Shown here piece after piece: positions 18,807-26,801 of a stretch of 64,000 nucleotides of DNA. The notes beneath the pieces were generated by a model. It was not told the origin of the DNA and searched no databases. It worked only from the letters and a program-made list of their open reading frames with translations. The first letter of the stretch is position 1; each line of letters begins with the position of its first letter. The DNA is from Sporanaerobium hydrogeniformans (GTDB taxonomy: Bacteria; Bacillota; Clostridia; Lachnospirales; Cellulosilyticaceae). Where the stretch lies: positions 62,001 through 126,000 of the forward strand of contig NZ_PEDL01000004.1 in the NCBI RefSeq assembly GCF_002735925.1, given 5' to 3'. The translations under genes were made by a program, and so were the position numbers.

Positions 18807-19060
18807 TTGATCCCTCCTGCTTATTCGTCATATTCTACACAAACACTTCATAAGACAACTTCTCTTCTTTATTTTTCCTACTATGCATCTTATTGTTGCT
18901 TATACTATATTCAATTATTATTTATTTTAACTTTATACATACCTCACCTAGTGAAGTATTTTACATTTTATATGATACTCATATATACCTCACCTGTCAA
19001 TGTATATTTTTTAAAAAATCATTATTAACAATATTTTTAAACTCATATCAATTTTCTACA
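18807..19060 (-). promoter_or_regulatory. nagZ upstream region: promoter with two identical 11-mers
   Basis: On the minus strand TTGACA (19000-18995), a 17-base spacer and TATCAT (18977-18972) form a good promoter, leaving a leader of about 160 bases. The 11-mer AGGTGAGGTAT occurs twice in direct orientation, at 18985-18995 inside the promoter spacer and at 18939-18949 in the early leader, 46 bases apart. The position is typical of a repressor or response-regulator site. The rest of this 254-base gap is AT-rich without further structure. Confidence 0.6.
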
Positions 19061-19064
19061 CCAA

Positions 19065-19102
19065 AAAGCTAAGTAAGAATTTATGAATTCTTACTTAGCT
19101 TT
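19065..19102 (-). terminator. Terminator after the small membrane protein
   Basis: Perfect 17-base arms at 19065-19081 and 19086-19102 with a four-base loop; on the minus strand the stem is followed by T residues. It ends the S41/MinJ-like operon. Confidence 0.88.
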
Positions 19103-19116
19103 CTTTATTTCTCTAT

Positions 19117-19629
19117 TTAAGCTACTCTTTTTCCCTCTTTTTTAAGGTCATTAGCTAGTTTTTGAACCTCTTTAATGTTCCAGGTCATTCGCATCATTGC
19201 CCCAAAACCTATTCCACATAATATAAATAAAATGAAACTAACTCCTTCTGCAATAGCACTAAAATGATATATATCAAAAAGAACTATCCAACACAAAAGT
19301 CCCCAACCTAATACACCTTCTGAAAAAATATAGCGCCATTTCATACTTTTATCCCACACTTCTTTGATAAGTAGCTCCTTATAAACCCCCCAAGAAATAA
19401 AACCCTGTATAAAACCGATTGGCATAAGTACTAGTAATTTAATAAACACACTCACTAAGAAGTTTTGAGGATGACGTATCAGCTCTCCAAAAAAAATACC
19501 TATTATAGCCTCCACAATAAGTGCAGGTCCAATAGCTCTCCCCAAAACCCCAAACTGCCAAATAAACTTCTGTTTTTGTTCCCTAATGATACATGTTAAA
19601 ATTTTTCTTATTAGCCTTTGTTTTGTCAT
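19117..19629 (-). CDS. Small integral membrane protein of unknown function
   Basis: A 170-residue protein with four likely membrane helices (about residues 30-50, 60-83, 102-120, 125-147) and a charged C-terminal tail ending KKEGKRVA. I recognise no family motif. It is the last gene before a strong terminator and follows the MinJ-like gene by 125 bases on the same strand, so it may belong to the same envelope cluster. Confidence 0.6.
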   Translation of the reverse strand: MTKQRLIRKILTCIIREQKQKFIWQFGVLGRAIGPALIVEAIIGIFFGELIRHPQNFLVSVFIKLLVLMPIGFIQGFISWGVYKELLIKEVWDKSMKWRYIFSEGVLGWGLLCWIVLFDIYHFSAIAEGVSFILFILCGIGFGAMMRMTWNIKEVQKLANDLKKEGKRVA

Positions 19630-19754
19630 CCCTTTCTCCTCCTCCTGTGCTGTTTACCCATAGTTTTCTATCTATTAATTACAAACATTCCTTCTCCTTC
19701 ATTATAATCCTATGTTTTTTATCTGCCAACTTAAAATAAATTAAATTTTCTATA

Positions 19755-20396
19755 TTATTCTATTTTATAATGAATAAGTGTTAGTATTTCATGCAAAAGT
19801 GGCATGAAAAGAAGTGCAACCTCTAATCTGAGATTCTTTTTTACTAAAATCCAACCTAGGCAAGTCATACATGCACCATATAAAAAAATGCATCCTCCCA
19901 TGAACTTAAACTTCTTAACTGGTTTTAATGAAGTTGTATCATCACTATATACCATAAACATAGGAATAAATAAAAGTTTATAAGAAAATAAAAAAAGAGG
20001 GACTAGCCAACTTAAATAAGTTTGGTATCCCTCTACTTTTTCTTTTCCTTTGTACCCCTTAACAGGCACTATAGCTTTGGGTGCCTCCCAATAAGCCATT
20101 ATCCCTTCTGCCATATGTAATAATCCTACTAAGAGTATAAGCTGCCTATAAGGCACTATAAACCATTTGCTAGGTAGCCCTAAATAACTACTTATGTTAT
20201 AAACCCCATATAAAATAGGAACACTGTATGCCAAACAGTACCACCTACTTTGAAAAGCTCCAGCTATGAGACTAATGGGGAGTAACCAAAATAAATTAAA
20301 AGTAAGAGGCCATGGGCCTCCTACTCTATTCATTACAAAACTAATACCTATCCCTATAAAACATCCCATTATCCATCTTTTTAATTTATTTTCCAT
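19755..20396 (-). CDS. MinJ-like polytopic membrane protein lacking a PDZ domain
   Basis: A 213-residue protein with about seven helices. The central stretch (LVGLLHMAEGIMAYW, then IVPVKGYKGKEKVEGYQ and a WLVPLF helix) resembles the membrane domain of Bacillus MinJ and clostridial PDZ-membrane proteins, where LH.E is followed by a basic loop and a KFWPLP helix. The MinJ C-terminal PDZ domain is absent. In Bacillus, minJ lies near ctpB and ftsEX; the same neighbours are found here, with a 9-base gap to the ctpA-like gene. Homology is inferred from pattern and context. Confidence 0.55.
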   Translation of the reverse strand: MENKLKRWIMGCFIGIGISFVMNRVGGPWPLTFNLFWLLPISLIAGAFQSRWYCLAYSVPILYGVYNISSYLGLPSKWFIVPYRQLILLVGLLHMAEGIMAYWEAPKAIVPVKGYKGKEKVEGYQTYLSWLVPLFLFSYKLLFIPMFMVYSDDTTSLKPVKKFKFMGGCIFLYGACMTCLGWILVKKNLRLEVALLFMPLLHEILTLIHYKIE

Positions 20397-20405
20397 CTCA
20401 TCCTC

Positions 20406-21566
20406 CTATTTGATTTCTTTTTTTACAACCTCTATAGCTTTTTGGAGTTGAGTATCTTCTTTATCTTCTAGCTTGCCTTTTGTAAGTGCATTGGTAGTTA
20501 AGCTAACTTTATAGTTTGGTTCAATCCCAATACCTTGGATACACACACCGCTTGGTGTGAAATATTTAGCTGTGGTAAGCTTAAGGGCTGAACCATCTGT
20601 AAGGGGTACAATGCTTTGAACAACCCCTTTGCCAAATGTGGTTTCACCTACAAGCTGCGCACGTTTATGATCCTTAAGTGCACCTGAAAGCACCTCTGAA
20701 GCACTAGCACTATCTCCATTTACCAAAACAACGATAGGGATAGCATTGTAGGTATCATCTGCATAAATTTCTTCTACCTTACCATTTTTGTCTTTTGTGG
20801 AAACAATAAGTCCCTTTGGTATAAGTTCATCTACAATTTTAGTCGTAACTTGCAATAACCCTCCTGGATTATTACGAAGGTCGAGAACTATACCTTTTGC
20901 TTTTTCTTTTTCCAGGTCATTTAAAGCTTTTACAAATTGTTCATGGGTTAACTCTTCGAACTGAGTAATTTTGATGTAACCAATATGTTTTTCTAACATA
21001 CGAGAACTTACAGAAGGATACGTTATATTTTTACGAGTAAGCACTAAATCATAAACCTTTTGCTCTGAAGGCCTATAAACGCTAACATTAACGGTTGTAT
21101 CTGGTGGTCCTTTAATCATTTTAGGGACATTTTCAAAATCATCCCCAGTAATGGTCTGACCTTCTGCCTTAATAATTTTATCCTTTGGCAAAATGCCTAC
21201 TTCTTTAGCTGGAGAGTTTTCAAATACCTCTGTTACTACAATGGTATTGTCAGTAGCATCAACTGTCATCTGTACACCTATCCCTGCATAGACACCACTT
21301 GATTTTTCTTTAAAGCTTGCATATTCTTCTGAAGTGTAGTAATTGGTGTAAACATCCCCTACTCCTGCTACAAATCCTTTATAAATCCCTTCCTGCATCT
21401 TATCCTTATTAACTTCGCCTACAAAATAATCATTAATAACTGCTTCTATCGCTAATAATTTTTTATCTACATAATAGTACTTATCAATGAAACCTGCTCC
21501 CACCAATACTATTGTTGACAATAAAAAACCTATAGCAGCACCTCGAAAAAAGCTATTTTTTTTCAT
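20406..21566 (-). CDS. ctpA: Carboxy-terminal processing protease, S41 (CtpA/CtpB type), active
   Basis: Membrane-anchored serine protease of 386 residues. One N-terminal helix (8-26), a PDZ domain at about 95-180, then the protease core. The catalytic serine is S288 in GDSASAS, the general base is K313 in TFGKG, and Q317 follows, all as expected for the family. The ATG at 21566 is preferred over the adjoining TTG because it sits better behind AAAGGAGG. Its paralogue just upstream has lost both catalytic residues. Likely targets are envelope or sporulation proteins; context suggests wall-hydrolysis control with FtsEX and the M23 protein. Confidence 0.93.
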   Translation of the reverse strand: MKKNSFFRGAAIGFLLSTIVLVGAGFIDKYYYVDKKLLAIEAVINDYFVGEVNKDKMQEGIYKGFVAGVGDVYTNYYTSEEYASFKEKSSGVYAGIGVQMTVDATDNTIVVTEVFENSPAKEVGILPKDKIIKAEGQTITGDDFENVPKMIKGPPDTTVNVSVYRPSEQKVYDLVLTRKNITYPSVSSRMLEKHIGYIKITQFEELTHEQFVKALNDLEKEKAKGIVLDLRNNPGGLLQVTTKIVDELIPKGLIVSTKDKNGKVEEIYADDTYNAIPIVVLVNGDSASASEVLSGALKDHKRAQLVGETTFGKGVVQSIVPLTDGSALKLTTAKYFTPSGVCIQGIGIEPNYKVSLTTNALTKGKLEDKEDTQLQKAIEVVKKEIK

Positions 21567-21653
21567 CAATGCTACCTCCTTTATAAATGTGTGACTGTTT
21601 TTAGTGTGCCTTATTTTAACATTCTTATCCTTATCAGTTTTTTCCTTTAAAGC

Positions 21654-22826
21654 TTAAAATTGCTCCAAAGCTTTCATAAGCTGTGCATCATTTTTAAGAG
21701 ATATTTCACCACTTGTCATCAGCTCAACAGCTGATTCAACAGTGTTTTTTATAGCAATATCAGGTGCAATGCCCTTACCTTTTAGGCTGACTTCACTTAT
21801 ACTGTAAATAATACCCGTTGTAACACGAACCCCCGTCTTATCTTTTAAATCTATACACTGTGTTACCACACCATTTCCACTGGTAATACTCCCTACGACT
21901 GGCATTTTCTTTACTTCTTTTAAAGTACTTACCATGGCCTCTACAGTACCACTTGTTCCCTCATTTACTAATAGAACGACTTTTCCATCATAACTTATTC
22001 CTGCATTTCCTTTATACTCTTTAAAGTTACCTGTTTTGTCTTGTACTTTGAAAAGAAGCTGATCTTCTATAAACAAGTCGCAAATCTCTACAATTTCTTC
22101 AAGATTCCTACTGGTAAGATAGCGGACATCTAAAATCACATCTTTAACTTGCTTTTCTTTAAAACTTTTTAAGGCCTCTGCTAATTCCTCACTGGTATCT
22201 GGGGTAATAGTCTTCATTTCTATGTAGCCTCTATTTCCCTCTAAAATCTCAGTCTTTAAACCCGGAATATGGATCACCTCTGAAACAAGTTCTACTGTTC
22301 GACTCTCTTTACCTGAATTATCTTGTATGACATAAGTTACCTTTTGGCTACCTGTATAAGCTAACTTTTCATAAAGCCCTACTTGATTAGCCATTCGCAC
22401 ACCTATCTCATCAATTTGGATAATTTTATCCCCTACCTTAATCCCTGCTTTTTCAGCAGGTGAGTTCTCTAATACTTGTGTAACTATAATTTCATTCCCA
22501 CTTATACCCCAAGTAAAAAATATACCTGTTCCTATATATTGTCCTTTTTCAAAGATTTTTTCTGCCGCATATTCCTCTTCATTTAAATAAACTGTACTTG
22601 GATCCTCTAAGCCACTTACATAACCTGCATACAAACTATCCATGATCTTTTGCTGATCCATATCACCTAAAAAGCTATAGTCTAAATACTTATTCAGTTG
22701 ATTCATCTTACTTCTTGAATACTGAGGAGCCGTAAAACGTTCTAAATTGCAACCAACAATTGTTCCCATTACACTTACGCTTACGACCATCCCTGTTAAA
22801 ATCCCTATTATCTTTTTTATTTTCAA
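21654..22826 (-). CDS. S41-family lipoprotein with both catalytic residues lost
   Basis: A 390-residue paralogue of the neighbouring CtpA. Signal peptide with lipobox TIVGC (Cys26), PDZ domain at about 100-185 and a full S41 core. Aligned without gaps to its neighbour, the catalytic Ser becomes G293 (EGTSGTVE in place of GDSASASE) and the catalytic Lys becomes N318 (TSGNG in place of TFGKG). It should bind but not cut. Translation starts at a TTG behind AAGGAG. It has its own promoter (22863-22891) and precedes ctpA by 87 bases. It may scaffold or inhibit the active protease. Confidence 0.88.
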   Translation of the reverse strand: MKIKKIIGILTGMVVSVSVMGTIVGCNLERFTAPQYSRSKMNQLNKYLDYSFLGDMDQQKIMDSLYAGYVSGLEDPSTVYLNEEEYAAEKIFEKGQYIGTGIFFTWGISGNEIIVTQVLENSPAEKAGIKVGDKIIQIDEIGVRMANQVGLYEKLAYTGSQKVTYVIQDNSGKESRTVELVSEVIHIPGLKTEILEGNRGYIEMKTITPDTSEELAEALKSFKEKQVKDVILDVRYLTSRNLEEIVEICDLFIEDQLLFKVQDKTGNFKEYKGNAGISYDGKVVLLVNEGTSGTVEAMVSTLKEVKKMPVVGSITSGNGVVTQCIDLKDKTGVRVTTGIIYSISEVSLKGKGIAPDIAIKNTVESAVELMTSGEISLKNDAQLMKALEQF

Positions 22827-22862
22827 AGGTCTCTCTCCTTATGTGCCCATTATTTTTTTATC

Positions 22863-22891
22863 ATTGTATTCCTTTTTTCTTTAGCAAGCAA
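22863..22891 (-). promoter_or_regulatory. Promoter for the S41 pair
   Basis: Minus-strand TTGCTT (22891-22886), 17-base spacer, TACAAT (22868-22863), placed between the upstream operon's terminator and the S41 lipoprotein gene. Confidence 0.6.
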
Positions 22892-22905
22892 TACTTAAAC
22901 ATTTA

Positions 22906-22946
22906 AAAAGAAGCAACTCTATAATAATATATTAGTTACTTCTTTT
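22906..22946 (-). terminator. Terminator of the CdaR-FtsEX-M23 operon
   Basis: Arms near 22906-22919 and 22933-22946 (AAAAGAAGCAACT with AGTTACTTCTTTT) followed by T residues on the minus strand, 36 bases after the M23 gene. Confidence 0.7.
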
Positions 22947-22981
22947 ATGTATGTTCTTATACTGTTAGTTTACCCAAAATC

Positions 22982-24106
22982 TTATTTTTTACTAAGATAA
23001 TTCCAAGGACTTGTATGTGCACCATTTACACGTACTTCAAAATGGCAATGATTACCTGTAGAATACCCTGTGCTCCCTATTTTAGCAACAGTTTGTCCTT
23101 TTTTCACTGTATCACCCTTTTGAACTACCAAGGAAGAGTTGTGTCCGTAAAGACTTACTAAACCACTTCCATGATTAATCATGATCGTATAACCGTAACC
23201 ATTTATCCAACCTGAAGTAATAACGACTCCATCAGCAGCAGCTACTACAGGTGAGCCATAGGAAGCAGGAATATCTATCCCTGTATGAAATTCTCTAAGT
23301 CCAGAAATAGGACTTGTTCTTGAATTGTACTGTGAACTTAATTGATAAAAACCTGGTACTGGCCACCCAAATTTTCCTCCTGCATATTTCAGGTTACTTG
23401 CAGCTGTTAACCTTTTTATCTCTGCTTCTAACTTCTTAGACTCTTCTTCCATCTCTTTAATCTGAGCCTTGAGTTTATCTTCTTCACCTGCTAGCTGGCT
23501 AATAGCTTTATCCTTTTCTTCTCTAGCAGCTTGCAGTTCATGCTTACGACTTACTTGCTCTTCAAAAAGTGTATCTAGCTCAACCTTTTCTTCTTCAATA
23601 AGCTTTTTTTGCTCATCGATTACCCGTATTTGCTCTTCATAGCTCACTAATGTATTATTATCTTTTTCTGAAATACGTTTAATATATTCTACGCGATTAA
23701 GCGCTTCCCAAAAGCTTCCTGAAGAAAAAACAATTTGCAAATACCCTATTTTGCGATTTTTGTACATTTGTACCATTCGCTTTTTGGTATCCTCATACTG
23801 CTCTTCTTTTTTTTCAGTAGCTACTTCCAGTGCTGCCTCACTCTTTTCAATAGCCTCTTCCTTTTCTGCTAACTGTACTTCTAATTGATCAATTTTATCT
23901 TGAATGCCTACAATCTGGGTATCTACCTTCTTAATTTCTTCTTTAATTTGCTTCTTTTTTTCTTCTGTTAAAGCAAGGCTATTTTTAGTTTCTTTTATTT
24001 CCTTTTGCGTATTACTTAACTCATTTTTTTTACTTGATAAACTAGAAGCATACAGAGGGGTGAGTATTAATAAAAAACTCAAAAATAAAGCTAGTTTTTT
24101 CCTCAT
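22982..24106 (-). CDS. Coiled-coil M23 peptidase, EnvC-like murein hydrolase or activator
   Basis: A secreted protein of 374 residues: signal peptide (1-20), two long coiled-coil segments from about 22 to 235, and a C-terminal LytM/M23 domain from about 245. The zinc ligands look intact: HTGID, then the HCHFE pair, so it may be an active endopeptidase rather than only an activator like EnvC. It sits 9 bases after ftsX, the arrangement seen where FtsEX pulls on a coiled-coil partner to switch on wall hydrolysis. In Bacillus the equivalent partner is CwlO. Confidence 0.92.
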   Translation of the reverse strand: MRKKLALFLSFLLILTPLYASSLSSKKNELSNTQKEIKETKNSLALTEEKKKQIKEEIKKVDTQIVGIQDKIDQLEVQLAEKEEAIEKSEAALEVATEKKEEQYEDTKKRMVQMYKNRKIGYLQIVFSSGSFWEALNRVEYIKRISEKDNNTLVSYEEQIRVIDEQKKLIEEEKVELDTLFEEQVSRKHELQAAREEKDKAISQLAGEEDKLKAQIKEMEEESKKLEAEIKRLTAASNLKYAGGKFGWPVPGFYQLSSQYNSRTSPISGLREFHTGIDIPASYGSPVVAAADGVVITSGWINGYGYTIMINHGSGLVSLYGHNSSLVVQKGDTVKKGQTVAKIGSTGYSTGNHCHFEVRVNGAHTSPWNYLSKK

Positions 24107-24115
24107 ATTTACCTC

Positions 24116-25009
24116 CTACACCTTCAAATGTTTATGTACAGAAACGCCACTACCTATTAATCCGATACCAATGCCTATACTTAAGTAAATAGGAATAAGT
24201 TCTCTCATGATTTCTTTTACTTCTAATAGATGGAAACCATTTAATAAGCTTAATAGATGAGTTATCATAAACTCATGAACACTATTATAAAGTAGAATTA
24301 TACATACAATTGAAACAAGGGAACCTATAAAACCAATGACAATTCCTTCTATCAGAAATGGTAAACGAATAAACCAGTCTGTGGCACCTATATATTTCAT
24401 AATATTAATTTCTTTTCGTCTAATATAAACTGTTAACTTAATGGTGTTGGCCATTAACAGTAAACCAATAATAATTAGGCAAACACTTATCCCCCATGAA
24501 ACATAATTCACTGTATGATTAAGCTTCATAAAAATATCTGTTTCCTTTTGCAAATAGACAATTTCTAACTCACTATATTTTTTTAAACTCTCTGCTACTT
24601 GATCTTGAAATTCTATACTTTCAACCGTAAGTTCAAAGGATGCAGGAAGAGGATTATCTTTTTGAAAATCTTCAAATAAGGTATCACTTTCACTGTCATC
24701 ACTAAAAATCTTAAGTGCTTCTTCCTTTGAAATATATTCTATATGGGTAATATGTGGAATGTTATTAAGCTCTTGCTGAATGGTTAAAATACGTTGTTCT
24801 TCTACTCCATCCTTTACATAAGCGGTAATACCGAACTTTGTTTCTACCTGTTTCAAGATGGTATCTATGTTGCTTCCTAAAGCATAGGAAACACCTAATA
24901 TCAATAAACAAAGTACAATAGTGCCTGCAGAAGCTAACGCCATGATTCTATTTTTCCATAAGCTTATAATACCCTCTTTAAATAAATACTTGAGAGTATT
25001 CCATTTCAT
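24116..25009 (-). CDS. ftsX: Cell-division permease FtsX
   Basis: A 297-residue four-helix membrane protein that forms a complex with FtsE and transmits ATP-driven movement to an outside hydrolase. N-terminal helix at about 20-45, an extracytoplasmic domain to about 160, then three helices (about 170-290). The ATG at 25009 is chosen because it lies eight bases from AAGGAGG; another ATG two codons earlier is too close to it. The gene overlaps the end of ftsE by 32 bases, so expression is coupled. Confidence 0.93.
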   Translation of the reverse strand: MKWNTLKYLFKEGIISLWKNRIMALASAGTIVLCLLILGVSYALGSNIDTILKQVETKFGITAYVKDGVEEQRILTIQQELNNIPHITHIEYISKEEALKIFSDDSESDTLFEDFQKDNPLPASFELTVESIEFQDQVAESLKKYSELEIVYLQKETDIFMKLNHTVNYVSWGISVCLIIIGLLLMANTIKLTVYIRRKEINIMKYIGATDWFIRLPFLIEGIVIGFIGSLVSIVCIILLYNSVHEFMITHLLSLLNGFHLLEVKEIMRELIPIYLSIGIGIGLIGSGVSVHKHLKV

Positions 25010-25685
25010 CGTCATAGCCTCCTTCTTGTATATCCTTCACTATATTGCCTTCTCTAATCTCTATGACCCTCTTTTTAAGGGAGTTAACAATCTCACGCTC
25101 ATGTGTTGCCATGACAATAGTCACTCCCCTTTTATTGATATCTTGTAAGCAGTTCATAATTTCCCAAGACGTAGCAGGGTCTAAGTTCCCTGTAGGCTCA
25201 TCTGCAATGAGAATAGGGCTATTGTTGACAATAGCACGTGCTAGGGCTGTTCGCTGCTGTTCCCCCCCCGAAAGCTCATTAGGATAACACCTTGCTTTTC
25301 GGGCAAGACCAACAAGCCCTAGCACAATAGGGACATTTTTACGAATATCTCTCCCACTTGCCCCTACAATTTGCATGGCAAAGGCCACATTTTCATAAAC
25401 CGTTTTATTAGGAAGCAACCTAAAGTCTTGAAAAACAATCCCTATATCTCTTCTTAGATAAGGAATTTGCTTTGGTTTTAGCTTGGTTACATCTTTATTA
25501 TTAATGATAATCTTACCATGGGTCGGTTCAATTTCCTTTAAAAGAAGTTTTAATAAGGTGGACTTCCCTGAGCCACTATTCCCAGTAATAAATACAAATT
25601 CTCCCTTCTCGATACTTAGGTTTGTATTATTTAACCCCACTGCCCCATTGGAATAAACCTTTGATACATTTTGTAAGTAAATCAT
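24978..25685 (-). CDS. ftsE: Cell-division ATPase FtsE
   Basis: A 235-residue ABC ATPase. Walker A TGNSGSGKST, signature LSGGEQQR, Walker B ILIADEPTGNLDP and switch His in ATHE are intact, with the FtsE-type opening MIYLQNVSKVYSNGAVGLNN. It overlaps ftsX and lies 18 bases after the CdaR-type regulator gene. Slightly longer at the C-terminus than the usual 228 residues, with an acidic tail. Confidence 0.95.
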   Translation of the reverse strand: MIYLQNVSKVYSNGAVGLNNTNLSIEKGEFVFITGNSGSGKSTLLKLLLKEIEPTHGKIIINNKDVTKLKPKQIPYLRRDIGIVFQDFRLLPNKTVYENVAFAMQIVGASGRDIRKNVPIVLGLVGLARKARCYPNELSGGEQQRTALARAIVNNSPILIADEPTGNLDPATSWEIMNCLQDINKRGVTIVMATHEREIVNSLKKRVIEIREGNIVKDIQEGGYDDEMEYSQVFI

Positions 25686-25703
25686 ATGCTATCCACCAAG
25701 TTT

Positions 25704-26801
25704 CTACATTCTATTTTGACTTTGTCTCTCCATATAATCCATATATTGACTTACCATAATTGTAATCTTAAATACAATGGCATCGTCAAATTGACGAAGG
25801 TCTAGACCTGTTGTTTTTAATAATTTATCTAAACGATACACAAGAGTATTTCTGTGAATATAAAGTTGTCTTGAAGTTTCAGACACATTTAAACTGTTTT
25901 CAAAGAATTTGTTAACAGTTGTTAAGGTTTCTTCGTCAAAGCTATCTACACGCTTGTCCTTTAATACCTCTTTGATAAAAAGCTTGCAAAGTGAAAGTGG
26001 CAATTGGTAAATAATACGACCAATTCCCAGTTTTGCATAATGTGAAATATGCCCTTCGCAGTTAAAGATTTTACCTACTTCAAGAGCCATTGTAGCTTCT
26101 TTGTAAGAGTTAGATACATCTTTTAAGTCATTAACAGCTGCACCTACTGCTACATAAACCTTGCTCATAGCTTCTGCACTTAAGGTATCATAAATCATCT
26201 TTGCGTAACCTTCTATTTCAGCAGAATCATCTGACATCACTTCTTTTACTAAAATCATGTTCTTTTCATCTACAGCTGTTACAAAATCTCTTGTTTTGTC
26301 TGGGAAAATATTACGAAGGATATCTGAAACATTGTTATCTTTTTTATCATCACATTCAATAAGAAAAACAACACGACGTACATTATTTTTAATATGAAGT
26401 TTTTTTGCACGTGTATAAATATCTACTAAAAGTAAGTTATCTAAAAGAAGATTTTTGATAAAATTATCGCGATCAAAACGTTCCTTATAAGCTACTAGTA
26501 AACTTTTAATTTGGAAGGTTACAATTTTACCTAATTTATAAGCTTCATCATCTACCCCACTTACTGATAAAACATACTCTACTAAATATTCATCATAAAT
26601 TTTGAAATAATGAGAGCCTTGCATCTCTTGGCTATCCGCTTGAGAATTAATAAAGGCTTCTACTTGTGGTACATATTCTCCTACATTATTGCTAATTGTA
26701 GAAACAACGATTTTTGACTCTGCATCAATAATGCAAAAATCACGGCGTGTAATATTTTTTAGTCCGTCTATTGTACTTTGTAAAATTTGATTGGAAATCA
26801 T
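25704..26801 (-). CDS. cdaR: CdaR/PucR-type transcription regulator
   Basis: A 365-residue regulator. The first 110 residues look like the sugar-diacid recognition domain (QILQSTIDGLKNITRRDFCIID). A GGDEF-like middle follows, then the C-terminal PucR helix-turn-helix with the family signature NVSETSRQLYIHRNTLVYRLDKL (about residues 313-335, given in part as NVSETSRQLYIHRNT). In Gram-negatives CdaR responds to sugar diacids such as glycerate. Here it heads an FtsEX-M23 operon, so its signal may be different. The link is positional only. Confidence 0.88.
   Translation of the reverse strand: MISNQILQSTIDGLKNITRRDFCIIDAESKIVVSTISNNVGEYVPQVEAFINSQADSQEMQGSHYFKIYDEYLVEYVLSVSGVDDEAYKLGKIVTFQIKSLLVAYKERFDRDNFIKNLLLDNLLLVDIYTRAKKLHIKNNVRRVVFLIECDDKKDNNVSDILRNIFPDKTRDFVTAVDEKNMILVKEVMSDDSAEIEGYAKMIYDTLSAEAMSKVYVAVGAAVNDLKDVSNSYKEATMALEVGKIFNCEGHISHYAKLGIGRIIYQLPLSLCKLFIKEVLKDKRVDSFDEETLTTVNKFFENSLNVSETSRQLYIHRNTLVYRLDKLLKTTGLDLRQFDDAIVFKITIMVSQYMDYMERQSQNRM

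Follow-up and report, generated by a model that had tools for sequence, protein, structure and literature searches.

Why would a bacterium keep, directly beside an active S41 protease, a relative of that protease from which the catalytic residues have disappeared? The question is raised by two neighboring genes on the minus strand of the window, the whole stretch of 64,000 nucleotides that was analyzed. The gene at 20406..21569 encodes an active S41 protease of the CTP type (387 aa), while the gene at 21654..22826, which has a TTG start, encodes a dead S41/CTP paralogue (390 aa). Both open reading frames lie where the initial annotation had placed them, and its description of the dead gene as the upstream one holds in the order of transcription. 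The substrate choice and the switching-on of CTPs are understood in few cases only.

Domains and catalytic residues

Sequences were labeled dead or active by their score to the two window proteins, and their residues were read afterwards. The dead protein (21654..22826, minus strand) can be subdivided into a signal or anchor segment, N-terminal helices of the dimerization type, a PDZ domain, the S41 core and C-terminal helices. PDZ and S41 domains pass the Pfam cut-offs in both proteins, in agreement with the initial annotation, which considered PDZ and core to be kept. With TIGR00225 (NCBIfam) the active protein passes at 308.6 bits, whereas the dead protein stays below the cut-off of 218.6 (155.4 bits). 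The two sequences share 30% identity over 341 columns (BLASTP, E 6e-43) with 8 gap positions. They had been said to align without gaps through the active site. This is correct from the nucleophile to the general base, where there are 0 gaps, and not for the residues shortly before, where three gap positions are found.

The catalytic roles of Ser309, Lys334 and Gln338 in CtpB from B. subtilis are described in the available part of PMC3808539. In the alignment with CtpB, the active protein carries Ser289, Lys314 and Gln318 at a like spacing, and with this triad, a GG loop and the passed family cut-off it qualifies as S41A. The dead protein carries Gly293 at the nucleophile position (21948..21950), Asn318 at the position of the general base (21873..21875) and Thr322 at the third triad position (21861..21863, all on the minus strand). 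Residue numbers count from the TTG; with the ATG after it as the start, each would be lower by one. The first two substitutions were already recognized in the initial annotation and are confirmed by the CtpB alignment. The replacement of Gln by Thr322 and the disappearance of the oxyanion Gly-Gly are further losses.

The same can be observed across f1, the clostridial family of the window genome. The complete triad is present in 28/28 active sequences (19 of the 21 from f1, with G005 and G016 outside the alignment, and 9 from other families of the order) and in 0/20 dead ones. Catalytic loss is thus not sporadic, and orthologues with an intact triad were not found among the 20. At the nucleophile column 19/20 dead proteins have Gly; the remaining one (G019) has Ser and has its Lys replaced by Glu. 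The Lys is retained in 0/20 and the Gln in 5/20. The oxyanion Gly-Gly loop is found in 28/28 active and 0/20 dead sequences.

The PDZ domain has changed as well. The position equivalent to Arg168 of CtpB, a PDZ sensor according to the available parts of PMC6686036 and PMC3808539, is Lys or Arg in 21/28 active proteins against 0/20 dead ones. Trp106 is specific to the dead proteins (20/20, active 0/28), and a T-x-Gly-x-x-Glu motif marks 19/20 of them. The carboxylate-binding loop is retained (Gly101 in 20/20, Gly99 in 17/20). The position equivalent to Val118 of CtpB is Phe or Tyr in 15/20 dead and in 0/28 active proteins. A Tyr at this position blocks peptide binding in CtpB, as reported in the available text of PMC3808539, so the dead PDZ may have other ligands or none.

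The AlphaFold2 model of the dead protein (8 sequences) is of medium confidence (pLDDT 77, pTM 0.72), with residues 1-74, including the N-terminal helices, poorly modeled; the active model reaches pLDDT 80 and pTM 0.73. The dead protein is predicted to have the CTP fold with PDZ and S41 core. The best structural match of its model is CtpB (VIA, Z 30.1, 329 residues, rmsd 4.5), followed by CtpA from H. pylori and P. aeruginosa. The likeness to CtpB lies in fold and domain order; unlike CtpB, the dead protein is devoid of the Ser, Lys and Gln, the oxyanion GG and the Arg168-type sensor. At the C-terminus, CtpB extends beyond both window proteins. The S41 core of retinol-binding protein 3 (IRBP) also resembles the dead model (Z 16.8-19.9). 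IRBP is a eukaryotic retinoid carrier, an S41-like non-protease that is not known to have an active S41 gene as its partner.

Conservation of the pair and its neighborhood

A search of 40 relatives was followed by one of 24 f1 genomes, in which the dead gene was found in 20 and the active gene in 21. The 3 genomes with neither gene are 73-83% complete. The scores in f1 separate cleanly, dead proteins reaching 327-539 bits and active ones at most 262. The dead gene adjoins the active gene in 19/20 dead-bearing genomes (in G016 via a fragment of the active gene at the contig end), which eliminates the absence of conserved pairing as an explanation. The dead frames are open at full length in 19/20; the G022 copy is cut by the end of its contig. 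Catalytic loss and pairing are kept across 8 of the 9 genera of f1. The locus is a real and conserved enzyme-pseudoenzyme pair, as the initial annotation had supposed. In the window genome itself a third S41 gene was not found with the dead protein as query (E 1e-3) or with PF03572 (E 1e-5).

On the minus strand of the window the pair is preceded by ftsE (24978..25685), ftsX (24116..25015) and a gene for an EnvC/PcsB-like M23 murein hydrolase (22982..24106), a conserved upstream neighbor. The active gene is followed by a gene for a conserved putative membrane protein of 213 aa (19755..20396, minus strand). An ftsEX neighborhood is also found for ctpB in B. subtilis. A ctpB homologue has been reported in Epulopiscium (available part of PMC3416734). 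The pair is linked to envC and/or ftsX in 15/20 dead-bearing genomes, so that it adjoins the FtsEX-EnvC division system in most members of f1. This count includes G020, where a piece of envC lies at the contig end, G009, where the small contig of the pair also holds ftsX, and G002, where 1.3 kb separate envC from the dead gene. The link is absent in G005, G007, G011 and G017, while G022 is outside the call. G007, G011 and G017 form one clade in which dead and active genes lie together and ftsEX lies elsewhere; at the relocated locus of G007 (L047, 8784-10349) the upstream genes read as an amino-acid ABC transporter.

The 213-aa protein is without a Pfam match and reads as a membrane protein. 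Its homologues occur in the same 20/24 f1 genomes as the dead gene, G006 being the one informative absence. They also lie 3' of the protease in 4/12 neighborhoods from other families of the order. The relative in G001 ends in a weak C-terminal PDZ below the Pfam cut-offs; the shorter window copy is without it.

Two f1 genomes depart from the pattern, and both are counted against a partnership of the two proteins. In G005 the dead and active genes are apart. In G006 the active gene directly follows envC and the dead gene is absent, which implies that the active protease can do without the dead protein.

Origin of the dead gene

The dead gene was not seen in any of the 12 neighborhoods from other families of the order. 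There, envC precedes the active gene by 74-245 bases in 6 and ftsX precedes it in 1, while in 5/12 neither ftsX nor envC was found on the fetched stretch. In a tree of 59 rows the dead proteins form a single clade (100/100); within it the branches are ordered as they are among the active proteins. The pairwise identities of dead and active proteins correlate at 0.93 (153 pairs), a value expected from shared descent alone. G006 holds the earliest-branching active gene of f1. Position and distribution point to one tandem duplication within f1. Most simply, the ftsEX-linked gene for the CTP protease would have been copied in tandem, and the dead copy would have lost catalysis afterwards. In the trees the long-branched dead clade does not join the active clade of f1, although a topology in which the two are joined withstands the AU test (p 0.18, whether G006 is included or not). 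Alternatively, the dead gene may be older and have been lost elsewhere, or G006 may have lost it.

Membrane anchor and expression

The initial annotation described the dead protein as a lipoprotein. The window protein does carry a lipobox, I-V-G-Cys26 (22749..22760, minus strand). Lipid anchoring is, however, rejected as a family trait, since the lipobox is present in 6/18 aligned dead sequences (the 20 minus one near-duplicate and one truncated at a contig end). Of the other N-termini, 11 are hydrophobic without a lipobox and one (L003:1501-2667) has Trp in place of the Cys, which its close relatives L004, L005 and L006 keep. Inside f1 the anchor thus alternates between a lipobox and a plain hydrophobic segment. 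The trait common to the dead proteins would be anchoring in the membrane, not lipid.

The interval from envC/PcsB to the dead gene holds a terminator-like hairpin with a T run at its end (22905..22946, minus strand; -16.8 kcal/mol, z -4.5), which separates the pair from ftsEX-envC. It was not picked by the terminator scan. Among 16 relatives whose sequence was read at this place, hairpins chosen by eye at 7 were folded and gave z -3.7 to -8.4. The hairpin suggests a break in transcription, which makes a promoter of their own possible for the dead and active genes. Such a promoter had been proposed in the initial annotation, and the promoter scan did not show it: a minus-strand sigma-70-like site was not found in 22827-22981, and the promoter-like sites in 19000-26000 equal those of shuffled sequences (29 versus 25.8, sd 4.8).

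Selection and domain conservation

The dead gene is under purifying selection. In 12 pairs with more than 50% dead identity, dN/dS is about 0.12-0.25 for dead and 0.04-0.14 for active genes, rough values with dS near or past saturation. Dead and active genes have the same dN/dS in the pair G019-G022. The near-identical pair G007-G017 (dead 0.30, active 0.14) was excluded from the range.

The median identity over 153 genome pairs is 32% for dead and 57% for active proteins. This difference is unevenly distributed over the domains. The ratio of dead to active conservation (column identity, 17 genomes) is 0.72 for the PDZ and 0.65 for the N-terminal helices, followed by the cap (0.60), the C-terminus (0.59) and the core (0.51; 0.50 when the catalytic loops are left out). 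The PDZ-minus-core difference was reached in 0/5000 shuffles and in 2/257 circular shifts. Thus, the PDZ is the relatively best-kept domain of the dead protein and the protease core the worst.

A second S41 tandem

In searches of the order and the class (392 and 391 genomes, high cut-offs of E 1e-62 and 1e-78), no score above 255.3 bits was found outside f1 among the matches listed. When 69 genomes of the class were surveyed with PF03572, neighboring S41 genes were seen in G000 and in G456. In another clostridial family, that of G456 (f63, 11 genomes), 5 genomes have a dead S41 gene immediately behind an active one and a fragment is present in a sixth (L112:939-3853 in G456, and L113-L117). 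The idea that such pairs are restricted to one family is therefore rejected as a general claim. The dead members have Gly at the nucleophile position in 5/5 and the Lys in 0/5, while their active partners have Ser-Lys-Gln. The two genes overlap or abut in 5/5 (from a 4-base overlap to a 1-base gap, with the first ATG taken). The active gene comes first, the opposite of the order in f1.

The f63 dead proteins join the f63 active proteins in the tree (99/98), which indicates a separate origin. In G456 the active member contains PG_binding_1, and the dead member scores 21.5 bits for it, just below the cut-off of 23. The tree grouping and the PG_binding_1 in both members disfavor the dead genes of f1 and f63 as one old family, although a topology with all dead proteins in one clade withstands the AU test (p 0.12). 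An independent origin of the f63 pair is, judging from these sequences, likely, though not proven.

A survey of 91 genomes of the phylum gave two further S41 clusters, both with Ser. In one (L127, G805) both members keep Ser and Lys and lie about 4.7 kb apart; the other (L126, G814) has two S41 genes of another type with the Ser kept. Both are possible contrast sets. An S41 pseudoprotease tandem was not found in the literature searched, which included few subscription papers.

Possible functions of the dead protein

In the reading that we favor over all others, and to which we give an even chance, the dead protein would be a membrane-anchored, PDZ-bearing partner of the active protease, either as pseudo-protomer or as adaptor. 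In this case, it would associate with the active protease through the kept N-terminal helices, in mixed dimers or oligomers, while its PDZ would bind the tails of envelope proteins. The dead protein would thereby determine the place, timing or targets of cleavage by the active subunit, with an effect that could be activating or restraining. Several observations are counted in favor: the conserved catalytic loss, the single clade, co-inheritance, linkage, purifying selection and the relatively best-kept PDZ, together with the relocated pair in G007, G011 and G017, the f63 tandem and, by analogy, CtpA-LbcA. Besides G005 and G006, four further points count against it. Dead and active proteins from one genome are barely more alike than those from different genomes, whichever region is compared, which gives no hint of co-adapted surfaces. 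The Phe or Tyr at the Val118 position may mean that binding of tails is altered or lost. The structure model is of medium confidence and is poor in the N-terminal helices. In the trees, finally, the dead clade stays apart from the active clade of f1, although joining them is not rejected.

Alternatively, the dead protein could be a PDZ-containing membrane protein or scaffold that acts on FtsEX-EnvC or the wall and is a mere neighbor of the protease. Such an independent function is rather unlikely, yet it deserves to be taken seriously: envC and/or ftsX are linked in 15/20, and in G005 the dead gene stands apart from the active one. It sits poorly with the three genomes that share a single relocation, where the pair has stayed together and ftsEX is elsewhere, and with the one f63 locus whose flank was read, where the upstream gene resembles argS and not ftsEX. 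Unlikely to a greater degree is a decoy or brake that binds the same tails as the active protease, or forms mixed dimers that do not fire, and so lowers its output. The kept carboxylate loop would suit this role, and a Gly at the nucleophile position would allow binding without cutting, but the same ligands are not expected when the groove residues differ (Trp106 and the bulky residue at the Val118 position).

That the dead protein has remained an enzyme by rebuilding its active site is very improbable. The Ser of G019 would be in line with this, whereas the Lys and the GG loop are each retained in 0/20, the Lys position holds many different residues, and by eye the dead-family alignment contains no conserved replacement of the triad. 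A decaying, functionless duplicate is scarcely credible: fast evolution would fit, but full-length frames in 19/20, a single clade whose frames stay intact in 8 genera, residues that are invariant and specific to the family, and a dN/dS well below 1 would not be expected.

The reading as a partner of the protease has parallels in known systems. CtpB is a PDZ-gated ring dimer, a catalytic homodimer (available part of PMC3808539). According to the available text of PMC11021448, the lipoprotein LbcA of P. aeruginosa binds the N-terminal dimerization region of CtpA, and only one protomer per CtpA dimer is activated. CtpA-LbcA and E. coli Prc-NlpI both place a CTP protease under a membrane-anchored, non-catalytic partner (same source), which is the putative arrangement here. 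LbcA and NlpI, the partners encountered in the literature, are helical TPR lipoproteins, whereas the candidate partner here is the protease's own relative, with a predicted S41/PDZ fold and not a TPR fold. The dead relative may fill the place of the silent protomer, or act as an adaptor. In families other than S41, the pseudoproteases ClpR and FtsHi are kept beside active relatives. The iRhoms, also not S41, likewise present a dead relative beside an active family member (available parts of PMC3149277 and PMC6451368).

Overall, the interpretation in the initial annotation is partly supported; its idea of a dead protein that may hand substrates to the active protease, or hold it back, would agree with the retained PDZ. 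We tentatively extend it to a broader proposal, which is somewhat doubtful at its full breadth: CTP proteases may have evolved obligate enzyme-pseudoenzyme hetero-oligomers at least twice. The silent subunit of an asymmetric dimer would have become a separate gene that keeps anchoring, dimerization and a retuned PDZ, with catalysis lost and convergence on Gly at the nucleophile position. If true, a partner that is a dead relative would offer a simple genetic handle on the activation of cell-envelope CTP proteases. It would also allow a test of why one protomer in a CTP dimer can stay silent.
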